Made by a program: the position numbers and the translations under genes. Shown here one piece after another: positions 46,639 through 63,612 of a stretch of DNA of 64,000 bases. Source of the DNA: Stutzerimonas stutzeri RCH2 (lineage in GTDB: Bacteria > Pseudomonadota > Gammaproteobacteria > Pseudomonadales > Pseudomonadaceae); NCBI RefSeq assembly GCF_000327065.1, contig NC_019936.1, forward strand, positions 1,860,001-1,924,000. Reading direction: 5' to 3'. The notes beneath the pieces were generated by a model, which saw nothing but the letters and a program-made list of their open reading frames with translations, was not told the origin of the DNA and did not search any database. Each line of letters opens with the position of its first letter. Position 1 is the stretch's first letter.

Positions 46639-46769
46639 CCATCCATCCGTCGGCGTGCCGTTGAGACCTCAACGGCCCCGAAAGACGGTAGTATTCCCGC
46701 TTATTTTTTTAAGTGGCTCGTGACTGGCATGTCGCGAGTGCGTTGGTTGACATCGTTAAAGGAATAACC

Positions 46770-48323
46770 GTGCGCTATCCAGATATCGAACACCACGGCG
46801 CTAAGGATGGCGTAACAGGTTCCTGTCATCAGCTACACATGGACGCGAGCCATAGCTTGCTGGTCGATTGCGGCCTGTTCCAGGGTAACGAGACTTCGAG
46901 CGATGGGCGTGCTGCTACAGGACGGCTGGATATCGAGTTTTCGCTCAGGACCGTCCAGGCGCTTGTCGTCACCCATGTGCATATCGACCACGTGGGGCGA
47001 ATTCCCTATCTGCTTGCCGCCGGATACAAAGGCCCGATTTACTGCAGCGAGCCTTCGGCCAAACTACTGCCTATCGTTCTTGAAGATGCCTTCAAGCTAG
47101 GCTTCAGCCGTGATCAAAAAGCCGTCGAGCGCTACCTCAAGCTGGTCGAGCAGCGGTTGCGGCCGTTGCCCTACCAGCGATGGTCAACGCTGCTGGAAAC
47201 CGAAGAGCTCATCGCCCGTGTACGGCTACAGCGAGCTGGTCATATTCTCGGCTCCGCCTATGTGGAAATTGACCTGACGTACCCCACCAGTGGCGAAAGC
47301 CAGCGCATCGTCTTCTCCGGAGACCTCGGGGCAGCACATGCGCCACTACTGATGCCGCCCGAATCACCCGAGCGAGCCGATATCCTCGTCCTTGAAAGCA
47401 CGTACGGCGACCGCCTGCATGAAGACCGCACCAGCCGCCGTCAGCGACTCGAAGCCGTCATCGAACATGCCCTGCAGGATCAGGGCACCGTACTGATTCC
47501 AGCCTTCAGCATTGGTCGTACTCAGGAGTTGCTGTACGAACTGGAAGAGATCATTCACAGCAAACAGCAAGTCTCTACAGACCAGTCCTCTTTGCCCGCC
47601 GATGAGCGCGCGAGGGGGGGCATAGAAAGCGCTGGCGCCCCGCACAGTCACTCCCCCCTTTCATCTGAGGAGAGGGCTAGGGTGGAGCGCAATAGCGACA
47701 ACGCTCATGGCCAGTTAGAAACAGACTGGCCCAGGCTCCCGATCATTCTCGATTCGCCCTTGGCCACACGCTTCACCGAAGCCTATCGAAGCCTGCAGCC
47801 TTACTGGAATCAGGAAGCCCGCGAGCGCGTCGAAGGCGGCCGCAATCCGCTTGCCTTCGATAACCTGATCATGATCGATAGCCACGCTGACCATATTGCC
47901 GTAGTCAACCACCTCACCCAGACCGCGCGCCCGGCGATTGTCATCGCGGGTAATGGCATGTGTTCCGGAGGGCGCATCGTCAATTACCTCAAAGCCATGC
48001 TGCACGATCCCCGGCACGACGTTCTATTCGTTGGCTACCAAGCCCAGGGCACACCAGGCCAAGCGATTCAGCAGTACGGGCCGAAGGGTGGTTACGTTGA
48101 TCTCGACGGTGAGCGTTTCGATATTCGGGCGAGGGTGACCAGCATTGGCGGTTACTCGGCCCATGCGGATCAGAAGGGGTTGGTAGAGTTTGTGACGGGG
48201 ATGCGGGAGTGGCCGACTAAGATAGGAGTGGTGCATGGGGAGCACGGGGCCAGGCAGGCGTTGATAAAGGTTCTACAGCAACGCTATTACGCTGCTGGTA
48301 ATGCGCTCGTGGTGAAGTCATGA
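46770..48323 (+). CDS. MBL-fold/beta-CASP metallo-hydrolase (RNA-processing family)
   Basis: 517 aa from the GTG at 46770 (AAAGGA 6 bases upstream). Metallo-beta-lactamase core with HVHIDH (zinc), FSGDLG, then a beta-CASP domain, and the C-terminal RNA specificity segment GGYSAHADQKGL with GEHGAR. Such proteins (Ysh1/CPSF73 group) are ribonucleases, but a role in O-antigen loci is not established. Between about 47575 and 47720 there is a low-complexity in-frame segment with repeat-like DNA that looks inserted in a linker. Gene lies between wzz2 and wzx on the same strand. Confidence 0.88.
   Translation: MRYPDIEHHGAKDGVTGSCHQLHMDASHSLLVDCGLFQGNETSSDGRAATGRLDIEFSLRTVQALVVTHVHIDHVGRIPYLLAAGYKGPIYCSEPSAKLLPIVLEDAFKLGFSRDQKAVERYLKLVEQRLRPLPYQRWSTLLETEELIARVRLQRAGHILGSAYVEIDLTYPTSGESQRIVFSGDLGAAHAPLLMPPESPERADILVLESTYGDRLHEDRTSRRQRLEAVIEHALQDQGTVLIPAFSIGRTQELLYELEEIIHSKQQVSTDQSSLPADERARGGIESAGAPHSHSPLSSEERARVERNSDNAHGQLETDWPRLPIILDSPLATRFTEAYRSLQPYWNQEARERVEGGRNPLAFDNLIMIDSHADHIAVVNHLTQTARPAIVIAGNGMCSGGRIVNYLKAMLHDPRHDVLFVGYQAQGTPGQAIQQYGPKGGYVDLDGERFDIRARVTSIGGYSAHADQKGLVEFVTGMREWPTKIGVVHGEHGARQALIKVLQQRYYAAGNALVVKS
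47587..47686 (+). repeat. Repeat-like in-frame segment inside the beta-CASP gene
   Basis: Two similar units, each encoding a peptide ending ERAR (near 47587-47620 and 47650-47684), the second with CTGAGGAGAGGGCTAGGGTG. This resembles the GAGAGGG-containing intergenic repeats common in pseudomonads. Both are in frame, so the gene stays open. By-eye call. Confidence 0.4.
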
Positions 48324-48425: not shown

Positions 48426-49703
48426 ATGCTGATGCCTACGCACAATTTTCAGCGTTTGTTGAATGTAGCGCTGCGTGGCATCACCCTGGCCAGCAAGTTT
48501 CTGCTGATTTTCTTCCTGGCGCGTTTTCTCGAGCCGGCGGAGCTGGGGCTTTATGGGCTAATCGCTGCGACCATCGGATACGCCCTCTACCTGCTGGGGT
48601 TCGATTTTTACGCTTTCACAACCCGCGAGCTGATCAAGCGCGAGCGCAGCCAATGGGGGGGGCTGTTGAAGGGGCAGGGTGCGCTTACCGCGGTGCTTTA
48701 TTGTGTCTTTCTACCGTTGTTTTGCCTGATCTTTGTTCGGCAACTACTGCCTTGGAGCCTGGCTGGCTGGTTCTTCGCCCTGTTGATACTCGAGCACCTA
48801 ACCCAAGAATTGAGCCGCCTGCTTATTGCTATTTCCGAACAACTAATGGCGAGCTTGGTGCTATTTCTGCGTTCAGGCGTCTGGGCGGTTGCTGTGGCAG
48901 GTCTGATGTTCATCGAGCCGGAGTCACGGACACTTGATTTTGTTCTAGGGGCTTGGACGCTTGGCGGGTTGTCGGCACTGCTGCTTGGCATCTACAAGGT
49001 TACCCAGTTGAAAATGGGGGGGTGGCACACAAGCGTGGACTGGCGATGGATTCGCAAAGGACTGAAGATCGCGATTCCTCTGCTCATCGCTACCTTGGCG
49101 ATACGTGGGGTATTCACGCTTGATCGTTATTGGTTCGAAGCGTTGGTAGGGTTGGAAACTTTGGGCGCTTATGTGTTGTTCATGGGTGTTAGTAACGCGC
49201 TGATGTCTTTTCTGGATGCCGGTGTATTTGCCTTCAGTTACCCGGGGCTCATCGCCGCGCACAGCAAGCAGGATGCTTCTGCATTCCGCCAAGGTTTGCG
49301 GAGGCTGTTAGGGCAAACCTTGCTGCTCACTGCTGCTTTTGCCGTGATCGCACTCCTGTTGATCGGGCCCTTGCTGCAATGGCTAGACAGGCCGCTTTAT
49401 ATGGCCCAAGAAAATCTGTTCCCATGGATACTTCTAACTACTGTTCTTTATGCCATTAGCATGGTTCCGCATTATGCGTTGTACGCTCAGGGTCATGACC
49501 GCCCGATCATTCAAAGTCACGTTGCAAGCTTTCTGGCCTTCATTCCGGCGACCTGGCTGTTTTCATTCTATTCACCGCTGCTAGCCGTACCGCTCGGCCT
49601 GTCTGCAGCGTTTACTCTGGTACTGCTCTGGAAGTCCTGGTTCTTTTTCCAGCTGACGCCGGCGTACTATCGTTCCACTCGCGTCAATCAGACACCGGTC
49701 TGA
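48426..49703 (+). CDS. wzx: O-antigen flippase Wzx (oligosaccharide flippase family)
   Basis: 425 aa, about 12 hydrophobic helices, with the family's N-terminus (FLLIFFLARFLEPAELGLYGL) and a second repeat-like half starting near residue 210. It would flip undecaprenyl-linked repeat units across the inner membrane. Flanked by wzz and sugar nucleotide genes. Confidence 0.88.
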   Translation: MLMPTHNFQRLLNVALRGITLASKFLLIFFLARFLEPAELGLYGLIAATIGYALYLLGFDFYAFTTRELIKRERSQWGGLLKGQGALTAVLYCVFLPLFCLIFVRQLLPWSLAGWFFALLILEHLTQELSRLLIAISEQLMASLVLFLRSGVWAVAVAGLMFIEPESRTLDFVLGAWTLGGLSALLLGIYKVTQLKMGGWHTSVDWRWIRKGLKIAIPLLIATLAIRGVFTLDRYWFEALVGLETLGAYVLFMGVSNALMSFLDAGVFAFSYPGLIAAHSKQDASAFRQGLRRLLGQTLLLTAAFAVIALLLIGPLLQWLDRPLYMAQENLFPWILLTTVLYAISMVPHYALYAQGHDRPIIQSHVASFLAFIPATWLFSFYSPLLAVPLGLSAAFTLVLLWKSWFFFQLTPAYYRSTRVNQTPV

Positions 49704-49721
49704 AGAAAAAGGAATGCATTA

Positions 49722-50720
49722 ATGTTTAGCGACAAAACCATCCTCGTTACGGGCGGTACCGGCTCCTTCGGCAATACGTTCGTGCCGATGACACTGGCCA
49801 GATACAACCCGAAGAAGATCATCATCTTCTCCCGCGACGAAATGAAACAGTGGGACATGGCCAAGAAGTTCGAGGGCGATAAGCGCGTTCGCTTCTTCAT
49901 CGGTGATGTGCGCGATAAGGATCGCCTGTACCGCGCGCTGGATGGCGTCGATTACGTGGTGCATGCCGCTGCCACCAAGATCGTCCCGACCGCTGAATAC
50001 AACCCCTTCGAATGCGTAAAGACGAACGTCGACGGCGCCATGAACCTGATCGATGCCTGCATCGACAAGGGCGTGAAGGGTGTGGTTGCCCTGTCCACCG
50101 ACAAGGCAAGCAGCCCGATCAACCTGTATGGCGCCACCAAGCTGGCTTCCGACAAGCTGTTCGTTGCCGGCAACTCATACTCCGGTGAGCACGGCACCCG
50201 TTTCTCCGTGGTGCGCTACGGCAACGTGATGGGCTCGCGCGGCTCGGTGATCCCGTTTTTCATGTCCATCAAGGACAAAGGCGTGCTGCCGATTACTGAC
50301 GAGCGCATGTCGCGCTTCATGATCTCGTTGGAAGAAGGCGTCGAGCTGGTCTGGCATGCCTTTGAGGACATGGAAGGCGGTGAGATCTACGTGAAAAAGA
50401 TTCCGTCGATGAAGGTTACCGATCTGGCTCGCGTCGTCGCTCCCGAAGCTCGCCAGGAAATCATCGGCATTCGCCCTGGTGAAAAGCTGCACGAGCAGAT
50501 GATTAGTGCCGAGGACGCTTACTACACCTACGAATATCCTGAGCATTTCAAGATCCTGCCGACCATTCACAGCTGGTCCACTTGCCCGAAACGCATCAAG
50601 GACGGCAAAAAAGTCCCAGAAGGCTTTGTGTACGCTAGTGATAACAACAGCGAGTGGATGAGCGATAGCCAACTCCAGGCATGGATTGACGCGAACCGCG
50701 AAAAGATCGGGAGCATCTGA
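49722..50720 (+). CDS. pseB: UDP-GlcNAc 4,6-dehydratase (inverting) PseB
   Basis: 332 aa SDR-type dehydratase; first step of CMP-pseudaminic acid synthesis. TGGTGSFG (10-17) binds NADP, LYGATK carries the catalytic Tyr/Lys context, and SRDEMKQWDM and TDKASSP are PseB-like. First of six consecutive pse genes with spacing of a few bases or overlaps. Confidence 0.95.
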   Translation: MFSDKTILVTGGTGSFGNTFVPMTLARYNPKKIIIFSRDEMKQWDMAKKFEGDKRVRFFIGDVRDKDRLYRALDGVDYVVHAAATKIVPTAEYNPFECVKTNVDGAMNLIDACIDKGVKGVVALSTDKASSPINLYGATKLASDKLFVAGNSYSGEHGTRFSVVRYGNVMGSRGSVIPFFMSIKDKGVLPITDERMSRFMISLEEGVELVWHAFEDMEGGEIYVKKIPSMKVTDLARVVAPEARQEIIGIRPGEKLHEQMISAEDAYYTYEYPEHFKILPTIHSWSTCPKRIKDGKKVPEGFVYASDNNSEWMSDSQLQAWIDANREKIGSI

Positions 50721-50722
50721 CG

Positions 50723-51883
50723 ATGATTCCCTACGGTCGCCAGGACATTACCCAGGCTGATATCGACGCTGTCGTGAGTGTGTTGCAATCCGACTTCCTG
50801 ACGCAGGGGCCGATGGTGCCGCGCTTCGAGCAGTCCGTGGCGCAGCATGTCGGCGCCAGCCACGCTCTGGCAATGAACAGTGCTACCTCGGCGCTGCATG
50901 TTGCCTGTCTGGCGCTGGGCCTTGGTAATGGCGACTGGCTATGGACAACGCCTATCACGTTCGTTGCTTCGGCAAACTGCGGTTTGTATTGCGGCGCGCA
51001 GGTCGATTTCGTCGACATTGACCCCCGAACCTACAACCTCTGCCCGCAGGCGCTGGCGCGCAAGTTGGAACAGGCCGAGCGCGAAGGAAAGCTGCCTAAG
51101 GTCGTGGTGGCAGTGCACCTGTGCGGCCAGCCCTGCGACATGCTGGCTATCCATGCCCTCGCTCAGCGCTACGGCTTCAAAGTCATCGAAGATGCCTCCC
51201 ACGCCATCGGCGGCAAGTATCAAGGTGAGTTCATCGGCAACTGCCGATACAGCGATATCACCGTGTTCAGCTTCCATCCAGTGAAGATCATCACCACCGC
51301 CGAAGGCGGCATGGCGCTGACCAACGATGCCGAGCTGGCCGCCAGGATGGAACTGCTGCGTAGTCATGGCATCACCCGCGATCCCGCGCAGATGACCCAC
51401 GAGGCCGATGGTCCTTGGTATTACCAGCAGATCGACCTTGGTTTCAACTACCGGATGACCGAGCTGCAGGCGGCTCTTGGCGTAACCCAGCTGGATCGCC
51501 TCGACCAATTCGTGGCGCGTCGTCACCAACTGGCGCAGCGCTACGATGATCTGCTGAGCGAACTGCCGGTCACTACACCCTGGCAGCACCCAGATAGCTA
51601 CTCTGGCCTGCATCTGTATGTGATCCGCCTGCAATTGGGCAAGATCACCAAAACCCACAGTCAAGTGTTCGAAGCCCTGCGCGAGCGGGGCATCGGCGTC
51701 AACCTACACTACATCCCGGTGCATACCCAGCCGTATTACCAGCGTATGGGCTTCGGCGTTGGTGACTTCCCCGAGGCGGAGCGCTACTACGCCGAGGCGA
51801 TCAGCCTGCCAATGTTCCAGACTATGACCGAAGCCCAGCAGGATGAAGTCGTGGCAGCGGTGCGCGAGGCGCTCGAAGCATGA
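50723..51883 (+). CDS. pseC: UDP-4-amino-4,6-dideoxy-N-acetyl-altrosamine transaminase PseC
   Basis: 386 aa PLP-dependent DegT/DnrJ-type aminotransferase. PLP lysine is Lys188 in FSFHPVK, with the IEDASHAIGG segment. Converts the PseB product to the 4-amino sugar. Two bases after the pseB stop; its stop overlaps pseF by 4 bases. Confidence 0.95.
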   Translation: MIPYGRQDITQADIDAVVSVLQSDFLTQGPMVPRFEQSVAQHVGASHALAMNSATSALHVACLALGLGNGDWLWTTPITFVASANCGLYCGAQVDFVDIDPRTYNLCPQALARKLEQAEREGKLPKVVVAVHLCGQPCDMLAIHALAQRYGFKVIEDASHAIGGKYQGEFIGNCRYSDITVFSFHPVKIITTAEGGMALTNDAELAARMELLRSHGITRDPAQMTHEADGPWYYQQIDLGFNYRMTELQAALGVTQLDRLDQFVARRHQLAQRYDDLLSELPVTTPWQHPDSYSGLHLYVIRLQLGKITKTHSQVFEALRERGIGVNLHYIPVHTQPYYQRMGFGVGDFPEAERYYAEAISLPMFQTMTEAQQDEVVAAVREALEA

Positions 51884-52572
51884 AGTTGGCGATTATCCCC
51901 GCCCGTGGCGGCAGCAAGCGTATTCCGCGCAAGAACATCAAGCCGTTCTGCGGTAAGCCTATGATTGCCTGGTCCATCGAGGCGGCGCTGCAGAGCGGAT
52001 GCTTCGATCGGGTTGTCGTCTCCACTGACGATGCCGAGATTGCGGACGTGGCCCTTCAGCATGGTGCTGATGTGCCGTTCACGCGCCCGGCCGAGCTGTC
52101 CGATGACCGTACCGGTACCGTTCCGGTGATCCGCCATGCCATTGAGTGGTTTTCCCAGGCGGGACTGGCTGTTGAGCAGGTCTGTTGTCTGTATGCCACC
52201 GCACCTTTTGTTACGGCAGAAGATTTGGATCGAGGCATGCAAGTGCTGCAAGGCAACGACTGCGACTATGCCTTCTCAGTGACTAGCTACGCTTTTCCTA
52301 TCCAGCGTGCCATTCGGATCAATGCCCAAGGCCGTGTGGAAATGTTCAATCCCGAATACTTCAACACCCGTTCACAGGATCTGGAAGAAGCCTTTCATGA
52401 TGCCGGGCAGTTCTATTGGGGGCGCGCCGATGCTTGGCTACAGGGAAAGCAGATCTTCAGTCCCGACGCATTGCCTGTATTGCTGCCCCGTCATCGCGTG
52501 CAGGATATTGATACACCCGAAGACTGGGTGCGAGCTGAATGGCTGTTCAAAGCCATGACTCAGGAAGGCTGA
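51880..52572 (+). CDS. pseF: Pseudaminic acid cytidylyltransferase PseF
   Basis: 230 aa. N-terminal IIPARGGSKRIPRKNI is the CTP-binding loop of CMP-nonulosonate synthetases; FCGKPMIAWSIEAAL and RHRVQDIDTPEDW are typical. Activates Pse to CMP-Pse. Overlaps pseC by 4 bases. Confidence 0.95.
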   Translation: MKLAIIPARGGSKRIPRKNIKPFCGKPMIAWSIEAALQSGCFDRVVVSTDDAEIADVALQHGADVPFTRPAELSDDRTGTVPVIRHAIEWFSQAGLAVEQVCCLYATAPFVTAEDLDRGMQVLQGNDCDYAFSVTSYAFPIQRAIRINAQGRVEMFNPEYFNTRSQDLEEAFHDAGQFYWGRADAWLQGKQIFSPDALPVLLPRHRVQDIDTPEDWVRAEWLFKAMTQEG

Positions 52573-52582
52573 TGCGTTGCTC

Positions 52583-53704
52583 ATGAACGTCGTCTTCCGC
52601 GCCGATGCTTCCCTGCAGATGGGTACTGGTCACGTGATGCGCTGTCTGACCCTGGCTGATGCGCTCACAGCGGCTGGGGCCAGATGTGAGTTCATCTGCC
52701 GGACGCATCCCGGCAACCTGCTGGATTTGATCCGCAGCAAGGGTTATATCGCCCATGAGCTGTCTGTTCGTCAGGGTATGTCAGGAGCAGGCGTGTCCGG
52801 CTGCAAGACGGAGAGCGGTGAGCACGCATCTGCGCATAGTCATTGGCTCGGAGCCAGCCAGGCCGAAGATGCTGCAGCTTGCGTACCGATTCTCGCGGAA
52901 CTGCAACCCGATTGGCTGATTGTTGATCACTACGCTCTGGACGTTCGCTGGGAGCAAGCCCTCAAGTCGCACTACCGCAGGCTAATGGTGATCGACGACC
53001 TGGCCGACCGACCGCATGCGTGCGACCTTCTTCTGGACCAAACCTACGGCCGTCAGGACGAAGACTACCGTGCATGGGTGCCCGACGACTGCCAAATCCT
53101 GTGCGGCTCGCAGTACGCCTTGCTTCGCCCGGAATTCGCCGCACGGCGTCCCTATAGCTTGCAGCGCCGAGTGAGGCCGCAGTTGCGTCAGCTGTTGATC
53201 AGCATGGGCGGTGTCGACAAAGACAATGCTACCGGTCGGGTGCTGGATGCGCTTCGCGACTGTCCGCTCCCGGGCGATTGTCGAATTACCGTGGTCATGG
53301 GCTCGACAGCCCCTTGGCTGAAGGAAGTAAAGCAACAAACACTTAGCTTGCCTTGGCCTAGCCAGGTTCTGGTTGGAGTCAGCGATATGGCACGCGTAAT
53401 GGCTGATAGCGACCTGGCGATCGGCGCGGCAGGCGCGACTTCCTGGGAGCGCTGCTGCCTCGGGCTGCCAACAATCATGCTAGTGCTAGCGGACAATCAG
53501 CGAAAGGTCGCGCAAGGATTGGAGCAGGGGCAAGCGGCTCGGATTATCGAGAGGTTACAAGATATCGGCTCGTGCCTTCCCAAATTACTACGGCACCTTA
53601 CCGAGCACCCGACGGCCCTGCAGCTGATGAGCCAATCGGCTACACGAATTGTCGACGGAAAGGGCGTGAGCACTGTTGTCCACCTATTGGAAACACTGAC
53701 GTGA
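52583..53704 (+). CDS. pseG: UDP-2,4-diacetamido-2,4,6-trideoxy-altropyranose hydrolase PseG
   Basis: 373 aa GT-B-like hydrolase removing UDP to give the PseI substrate. N-terminal FRADASLQMGTGHVMRCLTL and IGAAGATSWERCCLGLP are signatures. ATG at 52583 matches the family N-terminus; an in-frame TTG at 52577 has AGGAAGG 8 bases upstream and cannot be excluded. A Gly/Ser-rich stretch near residues 72-95 looks like a loop insertion. Confidence 0.92.
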   Translation: MNVVFRADASLQMGTGHVMRCLTLADALTAAGARCEFICRTHPGNLLDLIRSKGYIAHELSVRQGMSGAGVSGCKTESGEHASAHSHWLGASQAEDAAACVPILAELQPDWLIVDHYALDVRWEQALKSHYRRLMVIDDLADRPHACDLLLDQTYGRQDEDYRAWVPDDCQILCGSQYALLRPEFAARRPYSLQRRVRPQLRQLLISMGGVDKDNATGRVLDALRDCPLPGDCRITVVMGSTAPWLKEVKQQTLSLPWPSQVLVGVSDMARVMADSDLAIGAAGATSWERCCLGLPTIMLVLADNQRKVAQGLEQGQAARIIERLQDIGSCLPKLLRHLTEHPTALQLMSQSATRIVDGKGVSTVVHLLETLT

Positions 53705-54216
53705 CAATGAATTCGCAACAACGGGTTCGCCCGATGGCTCATGGCGATCTTATGAGCGTCCTTGCCTGGCGCAACCACCCGGACGTCCGTCGCTATATGT
53801 ATACCCAGCATGAGATTTCGTTTGACGAACATAGTCGCTGGTTCGAGCGCGCTTCGCAGGACCCGAGCCGACACCTGCTCATGTATGAGAGCGAGGCCAC
53901 CCCAATGGGCTTTATCAATATTCACCAAATAGCTGCAGGTGGAATAGCGGATTGGGGTTTCTACGCGGCACCGGATGCCCCAAAGGGTACCGGGAAACAG
54001 CTGGGACAGGCGGCTCTGCAGTACGCGTTCTCGGTGGTAGGTGTACACAAGCTTTGCGCCCAAGCCCTCCGCTATAACGAACGCTCCATTCGTTTTCACG
54101 GGAGTCTGGGATTCCAGCAGGAAGGTATCCTGCGGCAACAGCATTTCGATGGTCAGCATTACCACGATGTGGTGTGTTTTGGCCTGCTTGCCAATGAATG
54201 GCACATGAACCTTTGA
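53701..54216 (+). CDS. pseH: Pse N-acetyltransferase PseH
   Basis: About 171 aa GNAT-fold acetyltransferase acting on C4 of the amino sugar. RPMAHGDLMSVLAWRNHPDVRRYM and GFYAAPDAPKGTGKQLG carry the acetyl-CoA site. GTG at 53701 overlaps the pseG stop (GTGA); an ATG at 53707 is the alternative start. Confidence 0.9.
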   Translation: MTMNSQQRVRPMAHGDLMSVLAWRNHPDVRRYMYTQHEISFDEHSRWFERASQDPSRHLLMYESEATPMGFINIHQIAAGGIADWGFYAAPDAPKGTGKQLGQAALQYAFSVVGVHKLCAQALRYNERSIRFHGSLGFQQEGILRQQHFDGQHYHDVVCFGLLANEWHMNL

Positions 54217-54227
54217 GAGAACAATAC

Positions 54228-55283
54228 ATGCCTAACATACCGAGCATTAGCATCGCCGGTCGCCGTATCGCGGCTGACGAACCGCCTTACATCATTGCCG
54301 AACTCTCCGCTAACCATAACGGTAGGCTGGAAACTGCGCTGAGGATCATCGAAGAAGCTAAAAAAGCCGGCGCCGATGCGATCAAGCTGCAGACCTACAC
54401 CGCCGATACCATCACCTTGAATTGTGACTCAGAAGAGTTCCAGATCCATGGCGGCTTGTGGGGCGGTAAGACCCTCTATCAGCTCTATCAAGAAGCCCAT
54501 ATGCCTTGGGACTGGCATAAGCCGTTGTTCGAGCATGCCCGCTCGCACGACATCACCATCTTCAGCTCTCCGTTCGACAACACGGCCGTCGACCTGCTCG
54601 AGGATCTAAACGCTCCGGCCTACAAGATCGCCTCTTTCGAAGCTGTAGACCTGCCGCTGATCAAGTACGTAGCCAGCACCGGCAAGCCGATGATCATCTC
54701 AACCGGCATGGCTGATGCCGAAGAAATACAAGAAGCGATCGACGCTGCCCGCGAAGGCGGCTGCAAGGAACTGGCGATCCTCCACTGTGTTAGCGGCTAC
54801 CCCGCCCCGGCAGAGGATTACAACTTGCGCACCATCCCCGACATGATGCAGCGATTCGGCCTGGTTACCGGCCTGTCCGATCACACCTTGGACAACACCA
54901 CAGCTATCGCCAGTGTGGTGCTCGGTGCCTCCATTATCGAGAAGCACTTTACCCTCGACCGCAATGGTGGTGGCCCAGACGATAGCTTCTCGCTGGAGCC
55001 GGTGGAGCTGGCGGCGCTGTGCCGCGACAGCAAGACAGTCTGGTCAGCGCTGGGCAAGGTGGACTATGGGCGCAAGTCCAGTGAGCAGGGGAACGCGAAG
55101 TTTCGGCGTTCACTTTACTTCGTGAAGGATTTGAAAGCCGGGGATGTAATTACGCCTAACGCGATCCGAAGCGTGAGGCCAGGATTCGGCGTTGCACCTA
55201 AATATATAGAGAAGGTCCTAGGTAAAAAGGTTAGAGAAGGTGTGGCGAGCGGTATGCCAGTGGCTTTCGATCTTATCTATTAA
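54228..55283 (+). CDS. pseI: Pseudaminic acid synthase PseI
   Basis: 351 aa. Condenses PEP with the trideoxy sugar to make Pse. NeuB-like TIM barrel (IIAELSANHNGRLETA, KIASFEAVDLPLIKYV, EKHFTLDRNGGGPDDSFSLEP) and a C-terminal antifreeze/SAF domain (RSVRPGFGVAPKY). GC content falls towards its 3' end, at the border of the AT-rich block. Confidence 0.95.
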   Translation: MPNIPSISIAGRRIAADEPPYIIAELSANHNGRLETALRIIEEAKKAGADAIKLQTYTADTITLNCDSEEFQIHGGLWGGKTLYQLYQEAHMPWDWHKPLFEHARSHDITIFSSPFDNTAVDLLEDLNAPAYKIASFEAVDLPLIKYVASTGKPMIISTGMADAEEIQEAIDAAREGGCKELAILHCVSGYPAPAEDYNLRTIPDMMQRFGLVTGLSDHTLDNTTAIASVVLGASIIEKHFTLDRNGGGPDDSFSLEPVELAALCRDSKTVWSALGKVDYGRKSSEQGNAKFRRSLYFVKDLKAGDVITPNAIRSVRPGFGVAPKYIEKVLGKKVREGVASGMPVAFDLIY

Positions 55284-55316
55284 TGGTTATAGTTATCGCT
55301 GGAACATAAAAAATTT

Positions 55317-56192
55317 ATGAAAACCCTAGTTCGTTCATTTGTTGGGCGTGCGCCTCTCATGCTTCAGATGCAAATGGCAAAGGTTATACTTTGGCTAGAG
55401 GGTGTGTTGCAAGTCTTTCGTTGCTCGTATTTGCGGCGTTCTGGGATGACAGAATTTCTGTTGAATGCCCATTCGCCTCATGGTGATGTGTGCCATATAT
55501 TGGCGTCGGGGTGGAGTCTGAATGATTCATTTTCTCGTATTGATAGGTCTAATGCTTTTGTAATTGGATTCAACTTCTCATTTCTAAAGTGCCCTGATCC
55601 CGATGTGCATTTTATTGAGAATGCATCTTCGGCAGATAAAAGGTTTTTTATTAACACGTTCCATCATTATGCGGCTTTAAATATTTTCAAGATCTCCGAT
55701 AAAACACGTCTGGTATTCAAAAATATTTCCGAATTTAAGAACTCTACAAAGCTTATATGTTGGTTGTATGGCCGTGAGGCTGAGTTTGTTAGAGATCGGC
55801 ATTACCGAATATTTTCTGGTAAAGGGGTGGGGCCGACATTGGCGTTGATGCTCGAAGATAAGCGGGGCCTGCCACAAGCTGTGTCTAGCGTAGTTGGGTT
55901 GGTTATCTGGGCTAAAAATATGGGATTTAAAAATATTGTCGTGCATGGTTTGGATTTTTATGGGCCCCACTTTTATGGGTCGGATTTACATAAAGCGATA
56001 TTTGAAGGTTATATACCCGCTTGTTTCGATCCAGCCATTGGGAGTCATAAAACAGTTATCGGTGAAAATGGTGTGGGGGTTAAAGATCTGTTTATTGAGC
56101 TAAAGAAAAGTTTAGAGCGGCATGGGGTTAAGCTTTCGGCTGGTTCAGCGTTATCACCGTCTGCGGTATTCTTAGGAAGCGCCTATGACTAG
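55317..56192 (+). CDS. Unrecognised protein after pseI; candidate nonulosonate (GT42-like) glycosyltransferase
   Basis: 291 aa, strongly AT-rich. A glycine-containing HILASGWSLND loop (about 60-71) and, late in the sequence, GFKNIVVHGLDFYGPHFYG (about 202-220) recall the N-terminal GSGPSL-type loop and the GxxxIxLxGxDFY strand of GT42 sialyltransferases and DUF115 proteins. GKGVGPTLALML lies between them. No other transferase for CMP-Pse is visible here. Overlaps the polymerase gene by 8 bases. The link to GT42 is a pattern-level guess, not a family assignment. Confidence 0.5.
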   Translation: MKTLVRSFVGRAPLMLQMQMAKVILWLEGVLQVFRCSYLRRSGMTEFLLNAHSPHGDVCHILASGWSLNDSFSRIDRSNAFVIGFNFSFLKCPDPDVHFIENASSADKRFFINTFHHYAALNIFKISDKTRLVFKNISEFKNSTKLICWLYGREAEFVRDRHYRIFSGKGVGPTLALMLEDKRGLPQAVSSVVGLVIWAKNMGFKNIVVHGLDFYGPHFYGSDLHKAIFEGYIPACFDPAIGSHKTVIGENGVGVKDLFIELKKSLERHGVKLSAGSALSPSAVFLGSAYD

Positions 56193-57327
56193 CTATAAGT
56201 CGATGCGCTCTGTTTGTGCAACTTTGATTTTTGCATATGTGGCTCTTTCATGTGCGGCCTTTTACCTTGGCGATTTGCTTTTTAGATCGCTAGCTGTGAT
56301 TGTGGGGTGTGTTGTATTTGTTTTAATGATCTGGTGGGCTCCCAAAAAAAACATTATTGTTCTCTCCTCATGTTGGGCGGTGATCTGTCTCGTCGCAGCT
56401 ATTAACATGGTTTGGTCCGATCATAGATCGCTTTTTCTTGTGTTGATTTTTTTTTCCTGCCTGGGGGTTTCATGGGCAGCATTCGAATTTCAGTTGACGA
56501 AATATCTATATGAATATGTCTTTATCATGTTCTTGGCTTTAACATTCTTTCTTGTTTTTTTATTTGGATACGGATATAAGGAGTTTAATGTTTTTCTCGA
56601 AGGGTCTAGTCGTAACGTCTATTCGGCTCTTATGCTTGCTTCGGCGGTTGGGTACGTCCTTTCTGTTATTTATCGTGGAGAAAAGCCGGCCCTTTTCTTA
56701 ATTGTGTTATTTGTTATGCTGAGCTACCCTCTTTACGGGAGGTCGGCTATTTTCTTTTCTGTTGTCTTGCTGTTCTCGGTTTTGTTTTTCTATTATAGAA
56801 AAACGTTATTTTTTTGCTTGTTTTGTTTTGTTTTGTTTTTGGTTTTTTCTTATATTTATTTTGATGGTCAAATTGATGGTTATGCGCGCGGTACGAATTT
56901 CGAAGCGGGGTTGGAAAGCGAGAGATTTGATATGTTAGCTGACTATTTCAAAGGGCTAGATGTAAACGGCGTCTTTTTTGGAGGCGACTTCACTGTCTAC
57001 CCAAGTATTGAAGCTAAAGGGGGGAATCCTCATAATGCTTTTCTGCGCTTGCATGGCTATTGGGGGGTTGGTATCTCGATTCTGCTGTTCTTGTTCTTTG
57101 TTTCGCAAATTTTGGCCGTTCAAGATAAGCGTGCAATGATTGCGTTTACAGCTTTTCTTATTTTGGTTAGGTCGTTTTTTGATATCGTTTATTTGTTCAA
57201 CTTATTCGATTATTTATTTTTTCCGGCAATTTTGTATTTTTTTTATAGGCCTTATTATGTTGGCAATGCTGATGTCTCGCGCATCGGTGTTGGTAGGGAC
57301 TCGAATTTTTCGTGGGGTAAGCAATGA
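56185..57327 (+). CDS. wzy: O-antigen polymerase Wzy-like membrane protein
   Basis: 380 aa with about 11 hydrophobic segments and one larger hydrophilic loop (about 230-285, ending [16 protein letters not shown]). The NPHNxxL-type motif near the end of the loop is common in Wzy/WaaL proteins. Very AT-rich with rare codons. Position in the locus and topology support Wzy; sequence alone cannot prove it. Its stop overlaps the gmd ATG. Confidence 0.78.
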
Positions 57328-58442
57328 GAAAAGCACTTATAACCGGTATTACTGGTCAAGACGGTTCCTATCTAGCCGAACTTCTGTTAGAGAAGGGCTA
57401 TGAGGTTCATGGCATCAAGCGTCGCGCTTCGCTGTTCAATACGCAGCGAGTCGATCATCTTTATCAAGATCCGCATGTCAATAACCGAAACTTTGTGCTC
57501 CACTATGGCGATCTCAGTGATTCGTCCAACCTGACGCGAATCATCCAGGAGGTGCAGCCCGATGAGGTGTACAACCTGGGTGCCCAGTCCCATGTTGCCG
57601 TGAGCTTCGAATCCCCCGAGTACACGGCCGATGTCGATGCTATGGGCACGCTCCGCTTGCTGGAGGCCATTCGGCTGCTGGGCCTGGAGAAGAAGACGCG
57701 TTTCTACCAGGCATCTACGTCGGAGCTGTATGGCCTTGTGCAGGAAATCCCGCAGAAGGAAACCACCCCGTTCTACCCGCGTTCGCCCTATGCAGTGGCT
57801 AAGCTGTACGCCTACTGGATCACCGTGAACTACCGCGAGGCCTACGGCATGTATGCCTGCAACGGCATTCTGTTCAACCACGAGTCGCCGCGCCGCGGCG
57901 AAACCTTCGTGACCCGCAAGATCACCCGCGGCCTGGCCAATATCGCCCAGGGCCTGGAGCAGTGCCTGTACATGGGCAACCTGGACGCACTGCGCGACTG
58001 GGGCCACGCCAAGGACTACGTGCGCATGCAGTGGATGATGCTGCAGCAGGAGCAGCCGGAGGACTTCGTGATCGCCACCGGCGTGCAGTACTCGGTACGC
58101 GAGTTCATCCGCTGGTCGGCGGCCGAGCTGGGCATCACCCTGAAGTTCGAAGGCCAGGGCGTGGAGGAGCTCGCCATCATCGAGGCTATCGAGGGCGAAA
58201 AAGCTCCGGCGCTTAAGGTTGGCGATGTGGTCGTGCGCGTCGATCCGCGTTATTTCCGCCCTGCGGAAGTGGAAACACTGCTTGGCGATCCGACTAAGGC
58301 GAAAGATAAGCTTGGCTGGGTGCCGGAAATTACAGTCCAGGAGATGTGTGCCGAGATGGTTCGCGAGGATCTCACCGCGGCGCGCCGCCATGCCTTGCTC
58401 AAGCAGCATGGTCATGACATACCGGTACCAATGGAGAACTGA
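57324..58442 (+). CDS. gmd: GDP-mannose 4,6-dehydratase
   Basis: 372 aa [23 protein letters not shown] at the N-terminus, STSELYG and [12 protein letters not shown] (Tyr/Lys), [16 protein letters not shown]. Makes GDP-4-keto-6-deoxymannose. Followed by fcl, giving GDP-L-fucose. Codon use returns to the GC-rich norm within the gene. Confidence 0.97.
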
Positions 58443-58444
58443 CC

Positions 58445-59422
58445 GTGGCCCGTGATCTGAACCAGACCATATTTGTGGCCGGCCATCGCGGCATGGTTGG
58501 CTCGGCGATTGTCCGCCGTCTTCGGGCATTGGGGTACGACAATATCCTGACTACCGGGCGGGACGAGCTCAATCTGCTCGATCAGCAGGCAGTGCACGCC
58601 TGGTTTCAGTCCCATGCGATCAATCAGGTTTATCTAGCCGCGGCCAAGGTCGGTGGCATACACGCCAACAATACCTTCCCGGCTGATTTCATCTACGAAA
58701 ATCTGATGATCGAAGCCAACATCATCCATGCGGCGCACATCCATGGCGTGCAGAAGCTGTTGTTCCTCGGCTCTTCATGCATTTACCCCAAGCACGCCGA
58801 GCAACCGATGAGAGAGGAGTCGTTACTGACCGCTACTCTCGAACCGACCAACGAGCCGTATGCTATCGCCAAGATTGCCGGTATCAAGCTCTGCGAAAGC
58901 TACAACCGACAACATGTGCGCGACTACCGCAGCGTCATGCCGACCAACCTATATGGCCCGCATGACAACTTCCATCCCGATAACAGTCATGTGATTCCCG
59001 CATTGCTACGGCGTTTCCACGAAGCTGTTCAGCGCGGCGACAAAGAAGTGGTGATTTGGGGAAGTGGTAAGGCGATGCGTGAGTTCTTGCATGTCGATGA
59101 TATGGCTGCAGCCAGCGTCCACGTCATGGAGCTTGATCAGGCCGCTTACCAGGCTGCAACGCAACCAATGCTTTCGCACATTAATGTTGGTACCGGCGTG
59201 GATTGCACTATTCGGACGCTGGCGGAAACCATCGCCAGCGTCACCGGCTTCAAGGGACAGCTGATATTCGACAGCAACAAGCCGGACGGTGCGCCTCGCA
59301 AGCTCATGGATGCCTCTCGCCTCAAGAGCCTCGGTTGGGAGGCCAGCATCACGCTGGAAGACGGTTTGCGTAGCGCCTATGGATGGTATGTCTCGAATGT
59401 CGAACAGGCACGGTCGCAGTGA
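58445..59422 (+). CDS. fcl: GDP-L-fucose synthase
   Basis: 325 aa epimerase/reductase (WcaG). [23 protein letters not shown] and the catalytic EPYAIAKI region. GTG start at 58445, 2 bases after gmd stops. Confidence 0.96.
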
Positions 59423-59438
59423 CTTCGGGAGTGCTTGC

Positions 59439-59930
59439 ATGTGGCTAGACGAGGATGCTTTTCGGGGCGTAGTGGCTTCTACTCCGTTGGTTTCCATTGA
59501 TCTTGTTGTTCAGAACGAGCATGGCGAGCTGCTTCTCGGCCATCGCCTGAATCGTCCGGCTCAGGGCTTCTGGTTCGTGCCAGGTGGTCGTATCCAGAAG
59601 AACGAGACTCTCGATGAAGCGTTCCGACGTCTCACTTCTGGCGAGCTGGGAAGTGCTTTCGACCGTGCTTCTGCGGGACTGCTTGGCATATATGAGCATT
59701 TCTATGCAGATAGCGTTTTTGGTACGGCCGAGGATGGCATTGATACCCACTATATAGTGCTTGCCTATCACTTGCTGCTGCCTATTGGTCACGTCCTCAC
59801 GCTGCCAATTGAGCAGCACAGCGCTTATCGCTGGTGGTCAATCACTGAAGTTGAGGCCAGCGCCAAGGTGCACGGCAATTCACGTGCATATCTAGACGCG
59901 CTGCGTATGCATATGCGTGAAGGAAAATGA
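59439..59930 (+). CDS. gmm: GDP-mannose mannosyl hydrolase (Nudix)
   Basis: 163 aa WcaH/Gmm. The modified Nudix box [17 protein letters not shown] lacks a normal Nudix glutamate arrangement, as in this family. Hydrolyses GDP-mannose, maybe balancing the GDP-mannose/GDP-fucose pools. ATG at 59439; manC follows within 2 bases. Confidence 0.93.
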
Positions 59931-59931
59931 A

Positions 59932-61341
59932 ATGCTTCTACCGGTAATCATAGCCGGCGGTTCGGGCTCGCGTCTGTGGCCGTTATCGCGGCAGCTTAAT
60001 CCCAAGCAGTTTCTGGCGTTGACCGATGCGCAGTTATCCATGTTGCAGTCGACCATCCGCCGGCTGGATGGTCTCGAAGCGGGTTTGCCTCTGCTGATCT
60101 GCAACGAGCAGCATCGGTTCCTCGCTGCAGAGCAGCTCCGCCAGTTGAGTATGGAGCAGGCCAGTATTCTGCTCGAGCCTGTTGGACGGAATACAGCACC
60201 GGCAATCGCCTTGGCTGCGTTGCAGGCAACACAGGAGGGCGATGACCCGATTCTGCTCGTGTTGGCCGCGGATCACCTGATTCAGGATGTGGACGCCTTT
60301 CACTCCAGTATCCAAGCGGCGATGCCGTTCGCTACCAATGGCAAGCTCGTTACGTTCGGCATCGTTCCGACGAATCCGGAAACCGGGTACGGCTATATAG
60401 AGAAAGGCAAGGAGCTGGGCGAGGGCGGCTTTGCGGTGAACCGCTTCGTGGAAAAGCCGAGTCTGGATATCGCAGAGGAATACTTGGCGAGTGGTGAGTA
60501 CTTTTGGAACAGCGGTATGTTCATGTTCCGAGCTAGCCGGTATCTGGACGAGTTGGAGCGTCACCAGCCGTCAATACTTGCGGCTTGTCGTCAGGCGCTC
60601 GCGGCCGGAACGCAGGATATGCATTTCGTTCGGGTAGATGCAGCCACATTTGCTGCCTGTCCGGAGGACTCCGTTGACTATGCCGTGATGGAGAAGACAA
60701 ACGATGCAGTCATGGTGCCGCTAGATGCTGGTTGGAGCGACGTTGGGTCTTGGACGGCGCTCTGGGAGGCCAGTAACAAGGATGCTGAAGGAAATGTGTT
60801 CAAGGGCGACGTCCTCGGCCACGCCACTCGCAATTCCTTTGTTCACGCTGACAGCCGCCTGGTGGCAACGCTGGGGGTTGAAGATTTGGTAATCGTAGAG
60901 ACCAAAGACGCTGTGCTGGTCGCCCATAAAAACCAGGTGCAAGACGTCAAGAAGCTCGTCGAGCGCATCAAAGCTGATAATCGCCACGAGCACCTCAATC
61001 ACAGGGAGGTCTATCGTCCTTGGGGGGTGTATGACGCCATCGACAGCGGGCACCGTTATCAAGTCAAGCGCATTACCGTCCAACCGGGCGCCAAGCTGTC
61101 TGTGCAGATGCATCATCATCGGGCTGAGCATTGGGTCGTGGTCAGCGGGACTGCCAAGGTGACTAACGGCGATAAGACTTACTTGGTCACCGAAAACCAA
61201 TCGACCTACATACCGGTAGGCCAAGTCCATGCACTGGAAAACCCCGGAGTAATCCCATTGGAGCTGATTGAAGTTCAGTCGGGTTCTTATCTGGGCGAAG
61301 ACGATATTGTGCGGTTCGAAGATCAGTATGGGCGCGCGTAA
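59932..61341 (+). CDS. manC: Mannose-1-phosphate guanylyltransferase/mannose-6-phosphate isomerase
   Basis: 469 aa bifunctional type. Nucleotidyl transferase motif [21 protein letters not shown], and a C-terminal cupin isomerase domain with [13 protein letters not shown] at 59932 is preferred (AAGGA 7 bases upstream) over an upstream in-frame GTG. Supplies GDP-mannose to gmd. Confidence 0.96.
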
Positions 61342-61350
61342 GGGGACGGT

Positions 61351-62103
61351 TTGAAGATTTCAATAATTACGGTGGCCTACAATAGTTCCGCTACCATCGA
61401 AACGACGCTCGACTCGGTACAGGCACAAGGCTATCCGGACTTGGAATATATCGTGGTCGATGGCGGTTCTACCGATGCGACATTGGATGTCGTACGTAAC
61501 TATCCCGGTCTGGTTACTCAGCTTATTTCCGAGCCTGACCGCGGGATCTACGACGCGATGAATAAAGGTGTCCAGCGAGCTACCGGGGAGGTTGTTGGTA
61601 TCCTCAACTCAGATGATTTCTATCGCCATTCACGGGTGCTGCAAGAGGTCGCTGAAGCCTTCGCGGCTGATCCAGAGTTGGAGGTATTGATGGGGGATGT
61701 GGATTTCGTGTCGGACGAGGATCTGCAAGAGCCAGTGAGAACTTATCGCGCGACGGGTTTCCGACCCTGGATGTTTCGTTTGGGTTTCATGCCGCCACAC
61801 CCAGCAATCTTTATTCGAAAATCTGCGTACGAGCGTGTTGGGCTATATAAGCTAGGCTACAGGATAGCTGCCGATTTCGACTTTCTTGTGAGACTGTTGC
61901 TGATCGACCGAGCAAAGTATCGAATCGCAGGTACCCAATGGGTCAGAATGCGCACCGGCGGAGCCAGCACTGCTGGCTGGAAAAGCAATTTGATATCCAC
62001 TCGCGAGATGCTGCGTTCATTGCGTGAGAACGGCGTTTTTTCTTCTATGCCGATGCTGTTGCTTCGATTGCCTGTCAAATACATCAGACAGGTATTTCTA
62101 TGA
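61351..62103 (+). CDS. Family 2 glycosyltransferase
   Basis: 250 aa GT-A fold. ISIITVAYNSSATIETTLDS, VVDGGSTDATLD, GIYDAMNKGV and NSDDFY (metal site) are typical WcaA/Wbd-type transferases. Start is TTG at 61351. Probably adds fucose or an aminosugar residue; specificity not readable. Overlaps the next gene by 4 bases. Confidence 0.9.
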   Translation: MKISIITVAYNSSATIETTLDSVQAQGYPDLEYIVVDGGSTDATLDVVRNYPGLVTQLISEPDRGIYDAMNKGVQRATGEVVGILNSDDFYRHSRVLQEVAEAFAADPELEVLMGDVDFVSDEDLQEPVRTYRATGFRPWMFRLGFMPPHPAIFIRKSAYERVGLYKLGYRIAADFDFLVRLLLIDRAKYRIAGTQWVRMRTGGASTAGWKSNLISTREMLRSLRENGVFSSMPMLLLRLPVKYIRQVFL

Positions 62104-63041
62104 ATGTCCTGTTGACGGGAGCGAACGGTTTCTTAGGGCGCGCCATTGTGGCTCATCTATGCCGGCAGGATCGGATCACCCTTTCCTGCGCGGTGCGTTC
62201 ACCTCTCGCTCAGGTGCGCTTTGCGACTTTTGCTGTAGGCGATCTTTGCGGTGCTAATGACTGGTCGCAACCTCTGCTTGGCCAGCAAGTAGTCATTCAT
62301 GCTGCAGCGCGCGCCCATATCATGAAAGACGAGCTCGCCGACCCCCTCAGCGAATACCGTCTCGTCAACGTGGAAGGCACGCTTAATCTGGCTCGTCAGG
62401 CCGCTGCTGCTGGAGTCGAGCGTTTTATCTATATCAGTTCCATCAAGGTCAATGGTGAGTCGACGCCTTTGGGCAAGCCGTTCGTATCCAGCGACGCGCC
62501 TGCACCTGAAGACCCCTACGGGCTTTCCAAGCTGGAAGCTGAGCAAGGCCTGATGCAACTGGCTGCCGAGACTGGGATGGAGGTCGTGATAATCCGCCCT
62601 CCGCTCGTTTACGGGCCAGGTGTAAAGGGAAACTTTGCCAGCATGATCAAGTTGATCGACAGAGGTATTCCGCTGCCCTTTGGTGCTATCCATAACAAGC
62701 GCTCTCTGGTCGGTGTCGATAATCTGGTGGACCTTATCATTCGTTGCGTCGACCATCCTGCTGCCGCAAACCAGATATTTCTCGCAGGCGACGGCAAGGA
62801 CCTGTCTACTACGGAGCTATTACTTGGCGTAGGCAAGGCGATGGATAAGCCAGCCAAGTTAATTCCAGCTCCTGCTGGATTTCTCCAGCTGGGTGCTACG
62901 TTGCTTGGCAAGAAGGCGATGGCTCAGCGGTTGCTAGGCTCTCTGCAAGTGGACATCAGCAAGACATGCGAGCTGTTGGACTGGAAGCCGCCGTACACGG
63001 TCGAAGAGGGCCTGCGTCGCTGCTTCGAGCCCGTCAAATGA
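62100..63041 (+). CDS. WbpV-like NAD-dependent epimerase/reductase
   Basis: 313 aa SDR. LLTGANGFLGRAIVAHL, YISSIKVNGE and PYGLSKLEAE mark the extended SDR. Similar in type and position to WbpV of P. aeruginosa, which reduces the 4-keto intermediate to UDP-N-acetylquinovosamine or -fucosamine. Lies before the initiating transferase and wbpM. Confidence 0.85.
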   Translation: MNVLLTGANGFLGRAIVAHLCRQDRITLSCAVRSPLAQVRFATFAVGDLCGANDWSQPLLGQQVVIHAAARAHIMKDELADPLSEYRLVNVEGTLNLARQAAAAGVERFIYISSIKVNGESTPLGKPFVSSDAPAPEDPYGLSKLEAEQGLMQLAAETGMEVVIIRPPLVYGPGVKGNFASMIKLIDRGIPLPFGAIHNKRSLVGVDNLVDLIIRCVDHPAAANQIFLAGDGKDLSTTELLLGVGKAMDKPAKLIPAPAGFLQLGATLLGKKAMAQRLLGSLQVDISKTCELLDWKPPYTVEEGLRRCFEPVK

Positions 63042-63060: not shown

Positions 63061-63612
63061 GTGATCCGTATTTTCGATTTTGTCTTCTCTCTGCTGGGGT
63101 TGGTTTTCGGCTTTCCTGTGCTCGTATTACTTACGATCGTCGGACTTTTCGATACAGGTTCCCCGATTTTTCGGCAAGTGCGTGTCGGTCGCCATAAGCA
63201 GCCGTTCACGCTGGTTAAGTTCCGCACCATGCGGGTGGACACGGCGTCGGTTGCCACGCATCTGGCCAGTAGTGCGTCGATTACGCGATTCGGTCATTTT
63301 TTGCGCAAGACGAAGCTCGACGAGCTACCGCAGCTCTGGAATGTGCTCAAGGGTGAGATGAGCTTGGTGGGACCACGTCCTGGGCTGTTCAACCAAGAGG
63401 AGTTGACGGTCGAACGGGCCAAACGTGGTGTTTACGATGTGCGCCCTGGCATAACGGGCCTGGCCCAGGTTAGCGAGATCGATATGTCGACGCCGGTTTT
63501 GTTGGCCGAAACCGACCTGCAAATGATTAAGAGCCTGACTCTGGCTAACTACTTCAAGTACATCTTTATGACTGTGGCTGGAAAAGGCGCCGGAGATCGC
63601 GTCGTTCGATAG
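63061..63612 (+). CDS. Initiating sugar-1-phosphate transferase (PglC/WbpL-like)
   Basis: 183 aa, one N-terminal reentrant helix (about 1-30), then KFRTMR, DELPQLWNVLKGEMSLVGPRPG, typical of small monotopic phosphoglycosyl transferases. Loads the first sugar phosphate on undecaprenyl phosphate. GTG start at 63061. Note that canonical P. aeruginosa WbpL is polytopic, so the name is only by role. Confidence 0.88.
   Translation: MIRIFDFVFSLLGLVFGFPVLVLLTIVGLFDTGSPIFRQVRVGRHKQPFTLVKFRTMRVDTASVATHLASSASITRFGHFLRKTKLDELPQLWNVLKGEMSLVGPRPGLFNQEELTVERAKRGVYDVRPGITGLAQVSEIDMSTPVLLAETDLQMIKSLTLANYFKYIFMTVAGKGAGDRVVR

Follow-up and report, generated by a model that had tools for sequence, protein, structure and literature searches.

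Pseudaminic acid (Pse) is a bacterial look-alike of sialic acid. In the stretch of Stutzerimonas stutzeri RCH2 DNA analysed here (the window, 64,000 nucleotides of contig NC_019936.1), the open reading frame (ORF) directly following the pseudaminic acid synthase gene pseI very probably encodes a cytoplasmic O-unit glycosyltransferase that uses CMP-Pse (CMP, cytidine monophosphate) and has a GT42-like variant of the GT-A fold. That the protein represents a small, undescribed sequence family, GT42-like in fold, is well supported. The original prediction had proposed a new pseudaminyltransferase family member with a GT42/DUF115-like pattern; it is borne out by fold, profile comparison, adjacency to pseI and an exchange with a KpsS-like protein in a sister cluster, and that reading is supported, the transfer activity itself being predicted from sequence and model. 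Pse glycosyltransferases were still called 'elusive' in 2021 (accessible part of PMC7910423). With its single compact domain and well-predicted fold, the present family offers an enzyme that can be tested directly and that may serve in the synthesis of Pse glycans.

The candidate, its main elements and the gene preceding it are given below; A1 (33 rows), A3 (13 members), A5 (16 members, down to 19% identity) and A4 (more family members plus four MptE-like proteins) are alignments.

55317..56192, + strand: candidate CMP-pseudaminic acid:O-unit transferase with a GT42/Maf-like fold (from ORF, model, fold, profile and family)
55491..55523, + strand: N-terminal nucleotide-binding-type loop CHILASGWSLN, residues 59-69, conserved in A1, G65 and S67 invariant
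55872..55979, + strand: PQAVSS...MGFKNIVVHGLDFYGPHFYG, residues 186-221, core of the match to CstII in the profile alignments
56046..56048, + strand: His244, proposed catalytic base, from conservation in A1, A3 and A5
54198..55283, + strand: pseI, pseudaminic acid synthase, directly upstream of the candidate (TIGR03586, 511.6 bits, cut-off 340.25)

The candidate ORF starts with ATG and specifies 291 residues. It lies 33 nucleotides after pseI, a gap in which RNA folding found nothing, overlaps the next ORF by 8 nucleotides and is single-copy in its own genome at E<=1. With a GC content of 0.425 it forms a low-GC pair with the following wzy-like gene (0.392), the surrounding genes lying at 0.51-0.61. 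It had been singled out as the only unassigned protein in the pse block, and this holds: PseB, PseC, PseF, PseG, PseH and PseI each score above the cut-off of an NCBIfam equivalog model, and no NCBIfam family matches the candidate at E<=1. Against Pfam it gives one row at E<=10, the MptE-like family PF01973 (E 0.12, 12.6 bits, below the gathering score of 34.6), and none for PF05159 (GT118/KpsS-KpsC).

The fold search proposed earlier, against GT42 and DUF115/Maf, was positive by two aligners (Foldseek and VIA-align) and, independently, by sequence profile. The candidate model has the fold of GT42 enzymes and of the Maf central domain, with 15-19% identity to GT42 enzymes in structural alignment; the best VIA-align match is the Maf protein 5mu5, covering only 5mu5 247-508. 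GT97 is not among the fold matches listed, which is no evidence of absence, and the BFVD search returned many uncharacterised and MptE-like phage proteins, uninformative on the donor. In the Protein Data Bank (PDB), a single-sequence search gave a PCI-domain protein (E 0.14), judged a chance match, and profile A1 gave none, probably because it is too narrow, since the more diverse A3 and A4 did find GT42. Profile A3, run against 177,635 distinct PDB sequences, retrieved eight with E<=10, all of them CstI or CstII at weak values (E 0.0055-0.033); with A4, nine of the ten matches were GT42 (E 7.8e-5 to 0.0037) and the tenth Maf (0.26). A3 aligns candidate Q187, A188, S191, G211, D213, F214 and Y215 with CstII Q128, R129, S132, G152, D154, F155 and Y156, in a CstII numbering counted back from Tyr156 via chain positions, which places the His of GHSKNT at 188. 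The hhalign comparison of A1 with the four MptE-like proteins reaches a probability of 13.5 and E 0.0021 over only 56 columns, and the MptE-like link therefore relies on fold and intermediates. The GT42 model PF06002 at E<=1e-10 found none of 274 genomes of the class, own included, and, as no control genome matched, this is uninformative on absence. Since neither family model is reached, the candidate is not filed as a GT42 or PF01973 member; it would work like both.

The motifs on which the earlier reading leaned stand in large part. The G-containing loop near the N-terminus is present (residues 62-69) and conserved, with invariant G65 and S67; alignment A4 suggests that CHILASGWSLN is equivalent to the GTGPSL-type loop of MptE-like proteins. 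The C-terminal GLDFY is also present (residues 211-215 inside HGLDFYGPHFYG, immediately after a predicted strand at 206-210) with G211, D213 and F214 invariant, but its final Y is kept in only 12 of the 33 family members. Invariant positions across A5 include H60, G65, S67, G84-F85-N86, S88, D96, E101, K135, D160, H210-G211, D213-F214, G216 and H244. Position 244 is His in 31/33 rows of A1, 13/13 of A3 and 16/16 of A5, and position 246 is Thr in 30/33 rows of A1 and 15/16 of A5.

Among about 5.8 billion proteins searched there are 32 relatives. No precomputed Pfam domain is recorded for any of them, and those that are named are each a 'hypothetical protein', mostly from Pseudomonas. An alignment-based search added two more, both with PF01973, and in single scans 29 of 33 members match PF01973 at E<=1 (best 1.6e-4). 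Homologs occur in 2/56 genus genomes (E<=1e-5) and 4/398 family genomes (both counts including the own genome and a weak match in genome G011), and in the class the own genome is the only one of 369 at E<=1e-8. Viral contigs gave two pattern matches and no relative, and no match was found in plasmids or, at the DNA level, in E. coli genomes. In the library searched, outside which most subscription papers lie, no GT42-like O-antigen Pse transferase is among the literature matches listed, and no paper combines 'pseudaminic acid' and 'DUF115'.

PseI occurs in 117 of the 398 family genomes and neighbours the candidate homolog in all three that have a strong one (own included). A species-genome scan yielded six homolog loci, which with the window make seven loci with pseI (genomes G068 and G289, very likely those of loci L004 and L002, are not counted as extra loci). 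In six of the seven (window, L002, L003, L004, the Halomonas locus L005, and L007) the homolog directly follows pseI, down to 22% identity, the value for L007, a Chitinophagaceae metagenome-assembled genome (MAG; Bacteroidota) in which it starts right after the pseI stop. A wzy-similar gene follows the homolog in L002-L004, and a 373-residue hydrophobic ORF without Pfam match does so in L005. At L005:8304-8963 and L007:7873-8754, formyl transferases (PF00551) stand just before pseI and neither cluster has a pseH match, which would suggest N-formyl Pse.

A sister cluster of the same genus (G016, locus L095) provides a natural replacement. It matches the window at 85.0% over 48462-51823, 86.6% over 52589-55186 and 88.2% over 57332-62630, to the end of the fetched stretch; between the last two, a 465-residue protein and a 418-residue hydrophobic ORF take the place of window 55187-57331, which holds the candidate and wzy. 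The 465-residue protein matches PF05159 Capsule_synth (2e-9, 37.8 bits, cut-off 20), from which alone it would be GT118-like; the hydrophobic ORF has no Pfam match and is read as Wzy by position. This pair is of low GC too (0.427 and 0.393). CMP-Pse is the likely donor because homologs adjoin pseI in distant relatives and because a KpsS-like protein replaces the candidate in an otherwise largely collinear cluster. The two clusters differ in pseF, candidate and wzy, and their Wzx and PseH proteins are 76-77% identical: at L095:3866-6291, pseF is replaced by a cytidylyltransferase (PF02348)-aldo/keto reductase (PF00248) fusion plus an SDR. At the corresponding place L002 has a stretch that does not match pseF, yet it keeps the candidate homolog; pseF type and transferase thus vary independently.

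The slot after pseI was also surveyed at 117 PseI loci, the window left out, by taking the longest same-strand ORF near the pseI end, a crude choice by which some picks are antisense noise. A slot ORF is present at 110 of the 117, in 43 clusters, and a Pfam scan covered 20 slot proteins from 19 clusters. The largest cluster (44 loci, one member scanned) is of ketoacyl-ACP synthase III type, and the candidate's family occupies the slot at two loci (L129, L141). At four others (L072, L074, L083, L115) an MptE-like protein does so, the two scanned reaching 34.6 and 40.6 bits for PF01973 (cut-off 34.6). These form a second small family, of 271-279 residues in Pseudomonadaceae with GTGPSL and GCDYNAF...GHCYDD motifs, and likely another Pse transferase family. 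A-2_8-polyST (PF07388) scores over its cut-off at L046 and below it at L059 and L076, the latter standing for a cluster of four (with L052, L056, L104); by sequence similarity these are candidate CMP-Pse transferases of yet another type. PF05159 is over cut-off at L071 and L095, and the L062 protein is a glycosyl transferase (PF13524). Seven scanned proteins gave no row at E<=0.01, and those of L073, L089, L094 and L112 only sub-threshold rows of other families. Proteins resembling CMP-nonulosonate transferases thus make up 7 of the 20 scanned, in several folds (L115 and L072 among them), and therefore the slot often, though far from always, carries such a protein. As an annotation lead for other clusters, the place directly downstream of pseI deserves inspection.

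The remaining genes of the window cluster supply the donor and the O-unit machinery.

49722..50720, + strand: pseB (TIGR03589, 546.3 bits)
50723..51883, + strand: pseC (TIGR03588, 584.6 bits)
51880..52572, + strand: pseF, donor-making CMP-Pse synthetase (TIGR03584, 351.8 bits)
52577..53704, + strand: pseG (TIGR03590, 325.2 bits)
53572..54216, + strand: pseH (TIGR03585, 138.1 bits over residues 53-203); as listed it overlaps pseG, and its true start is probably near 53695
48426..49703, + strand: wzx-like flippase (PF01943, E 7e-7)
56185..57327, + strand: wzy-like O-antigen polymerase, low-GC partner of the candidate (PF04932, E 0.016, sub-threshold; GC 0.392)
57324..58442, + strand: gmd, GDP-mannose 4,6-dehydratase (PF16363, 6e-157)
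58445..59422, + strand: fcl-type epimerase/reductase for GDP-L-fucose (PF01370, 8e-65; the Fcl call follows from pairing with gmd)
61351..62103, + strand: GT2 glycosyltransferase, probable fucosyltransferase (PF00535, 1e-25; WcaE model 4e-21, below cut-off)
63061..63612, + strand: initiating sugar-phosphate transferase (PF02397, 3e-52)

The candidate is thus linked to a complete pse set plus Wzx/Wzy, the wzy match itself being sub-threshold. Further upstream stand two tandem Wzz chain-length genes (window 43818-45098 and 45358-46638) and, between wzz and wzx, a beta-CASP metallo-hydrolase gene (PF10996/PF07521, window 46713-48323) with similar genes in L003 and L005.

For other TRANSFERASES, 30 further window ORFs were scanned, of 79 listed of at least 150 residues, many antisense, and EarP is the only glycosyltransferase among them at E<=1e-8. 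The claim that the window holds no other Pse-transferase candidate is nearly upheld: apart from EarP there is the GT2 of the cluster, which is fucose-linked. That GT2 tracks the fucose genes, not pse: its counterpart in L095 is 92% identical, and the one in L012, which stands with gmd and fcl in a genome lacking PseI, 89%. The own genome has no PF05159 match at E<=0.1, one sub-threshold place for PF07388 (C1:508761, E 0.016) and, at E<=1, only the candidate for PF01973; PseI is its only NeuB-family gene.

Several observations weigh against a CMP-Pse transferase. Searched on its own, the candidate reaches significance with no Pfam family (E 0.12 for PF01973), and PF06002 (CST-I) gives no row at E<=10, although HMMER filters drop most weak rows. 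The same fold is found in a pterin kinase (HPPK) and in SteA, a cell-division regulator, and is therefore no proof of transferase by itself. In CstII, His188 is the general base (His202 in CstI), and Arg129, Asn51 and Tyr81 contribute to binding of the sialylated acceptor (accessible part of PMC4202792). H244 lies two columns from His188 in a low-confidence stretch of the A4 alignment, with Thr246 on Thr192, and its role as base is our proposal from conservation. Arg129 aligns to Ala188 of the candidate; its loss fits a different acceptor. As many as 114 of the 117 PseI genomes have no close homolog, and most pse sets must therefore rely on other transferases. The L006 homolog is a 120-residue ORF matching the C-terminal half, a remnant or an assembly end, and this locus is therefore weaker support; preceded by a gmd fragment, it lies 3.6 kb past pseI, and a wzx-like, an MptE-like and one further ORF stand in between. 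The MptE-like one (L006:7986-8909, in a Gammaproteobacteria MAG) is a 307-residue GNGPSL-motif protein with 27.8 bits for PF01973, below cut-off, and may be the working transferase there. In G011 (L012, same genus) a homolog of 20% identity adjoins a polysaccharide pyruvyl transferase (L012:8748-10797) in an O-antigen cluster, PseI being absent from this genome at E<=1e-100, so that a link with Pse does not hold for the outer family. On another contig of G011, a NeuC gene above its cut-off (408 bits) adjoins one for a NeuB-type synthase, which scores 392.1 bits with TIGR03569, just short of the 399.65 required, and 212.5 with the PseI model; a nonulosonate donor is therefore available, which makes the pse-free homolog a lesser objection, and this homolog may be a true sialyltransferase. 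Finally, as pseF differs in the exchange, the window and L095 clusters may make different Pse derivatives.

The G011 case and the sub-threshold PF07388 place in the own genome are what favour a GT42-like transferase whose donor is a different CMP-sugar, either CMP-Kdo or one with a modified nonulosonic acid, while the GT2 or the product of an unlinked gene adds Pse. This is improbable, given that PseI is the sole NeuB-family gene of the genome, that the homolog directly follows pseI in six of seven pseI loci and that the GT2 is still 89% identical in a genome lacking PseI. Transfer of Pse to a protein such as flagellin, in the manner of Maf, would agree with the best VIA-align match; it is most unlikely for a protein of 291 residues that matches only the central part of Maf and whose gene is flanked by pseI and wzy within a cluster that also has wzz and wzx, with the wzy-similar or hydrophobic ORFs after its homologs in L002-L005. 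Equally remote is a non-transferase role of an MptE-like/DUF115 protein, pterin diphosphokinase-like or regulatory, in the cluster by chance, as Foldseek and profiles favour CstI/CstII, the position after pseI recurs, a KpsS-like protein and a different hydrophobic ORF stand in for it and wzy in the sister cluster, and without it the cluster has no evident CMP-Pse user. The flagellin transferase and pterin kinase readings were accordingly set aside.

For the CMP-Pse transferase, the following scheme is proposed. The pseBCHGIF products would make CMP-Pse. With this donor, the candidate would add Pse to the O-unit while the unit is still on its lipid carrier, probably beside L-fucose, and only then would Wzx export the unit and Wzy polymerise it. 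If it behaves like GT42 enzymes, the candidate would be metal-independent and inverting; a histidine, possibly His244, would deprotonate the acceptor hydroxyl, and the N-terminal GxS loop, Asn86 and the part around Ser191 and Asp213 would bind CMP. The model's stretch of low pLDDT (predicted local distance difference test) suggests a flexible lid at about residues 215-254, and helices 2-11 and 14-41 probably lie on the membrane. We infer the donor, the inverting chemistry, the catalytic base, the acceptor and the place of Pse in the repeat; likewise a short repeat of initiating amino sugar, fucose and Pse would fit the gene count (a PF02397 initiator, the GT2 and the candidate). A bolder proposal, for which the balance is even, is that the candidate founds a family of inverting GT42-fold O-antigen pseudaminyltransferases and that transferase plus wzy form a swappable linkage cassette. 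If so, sister strains keep the backbone genes and a pse set and exchange an inverting GT42-like for a retaining GT118-like enzyme, and their O-antigens, otherwise nearly the same, would carry Pse in opposite anomeric configurations. Near-identical clusters differing mainly in transferase, polymerase and CMP-synthase type constitute a natural experiment on the determinants of Pse linkage.

Among known systems, the closest are the GT42 enzymes CstI/CstII of Campylobacter jejuni and 9c08 of Pasteurella multocida, with which the candidate has in common the fold, the motif order, the residues around Ser132, Asp154 and Phe155, a His and a Thr that align close to His188, the catalytic residue, and, presumably, CMP-nonulosonate chemistry. 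It differs from them in its low identity (15-19%), the missing PF06002 row, the Arg129 position, its N-terminal helices and its linkage to pse. The Maf flagellin glycosyltransferases carry PF01973 as the central domain of three, whereas the candidate, belonging to an O-antigen cluster, has neither the N- nor the C-terminal domain. The MptE-like proteins of L072, L074, L083 and L115 resemble it in the slot directly after pseI, the G-x-S loop and the GCD/GLD element, but form a separate sequence family (18-20% identity), of which the two scanned reach the PF01973 cut-off. KpsS1, a KpsC homolog of the Acinetobacter baumannii capsule, transfers Pse5Ac7Ac with retention of configuration, and GT118 was defined from it in 2024 (accessible part of PMC12887879). 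The candidate would share its donor and role, and a PF05159 protein takes the same slot in the sister cluster; the two families are unrelated, and KpsS1 is retaining whereas the candidate is predicted to be inverting.
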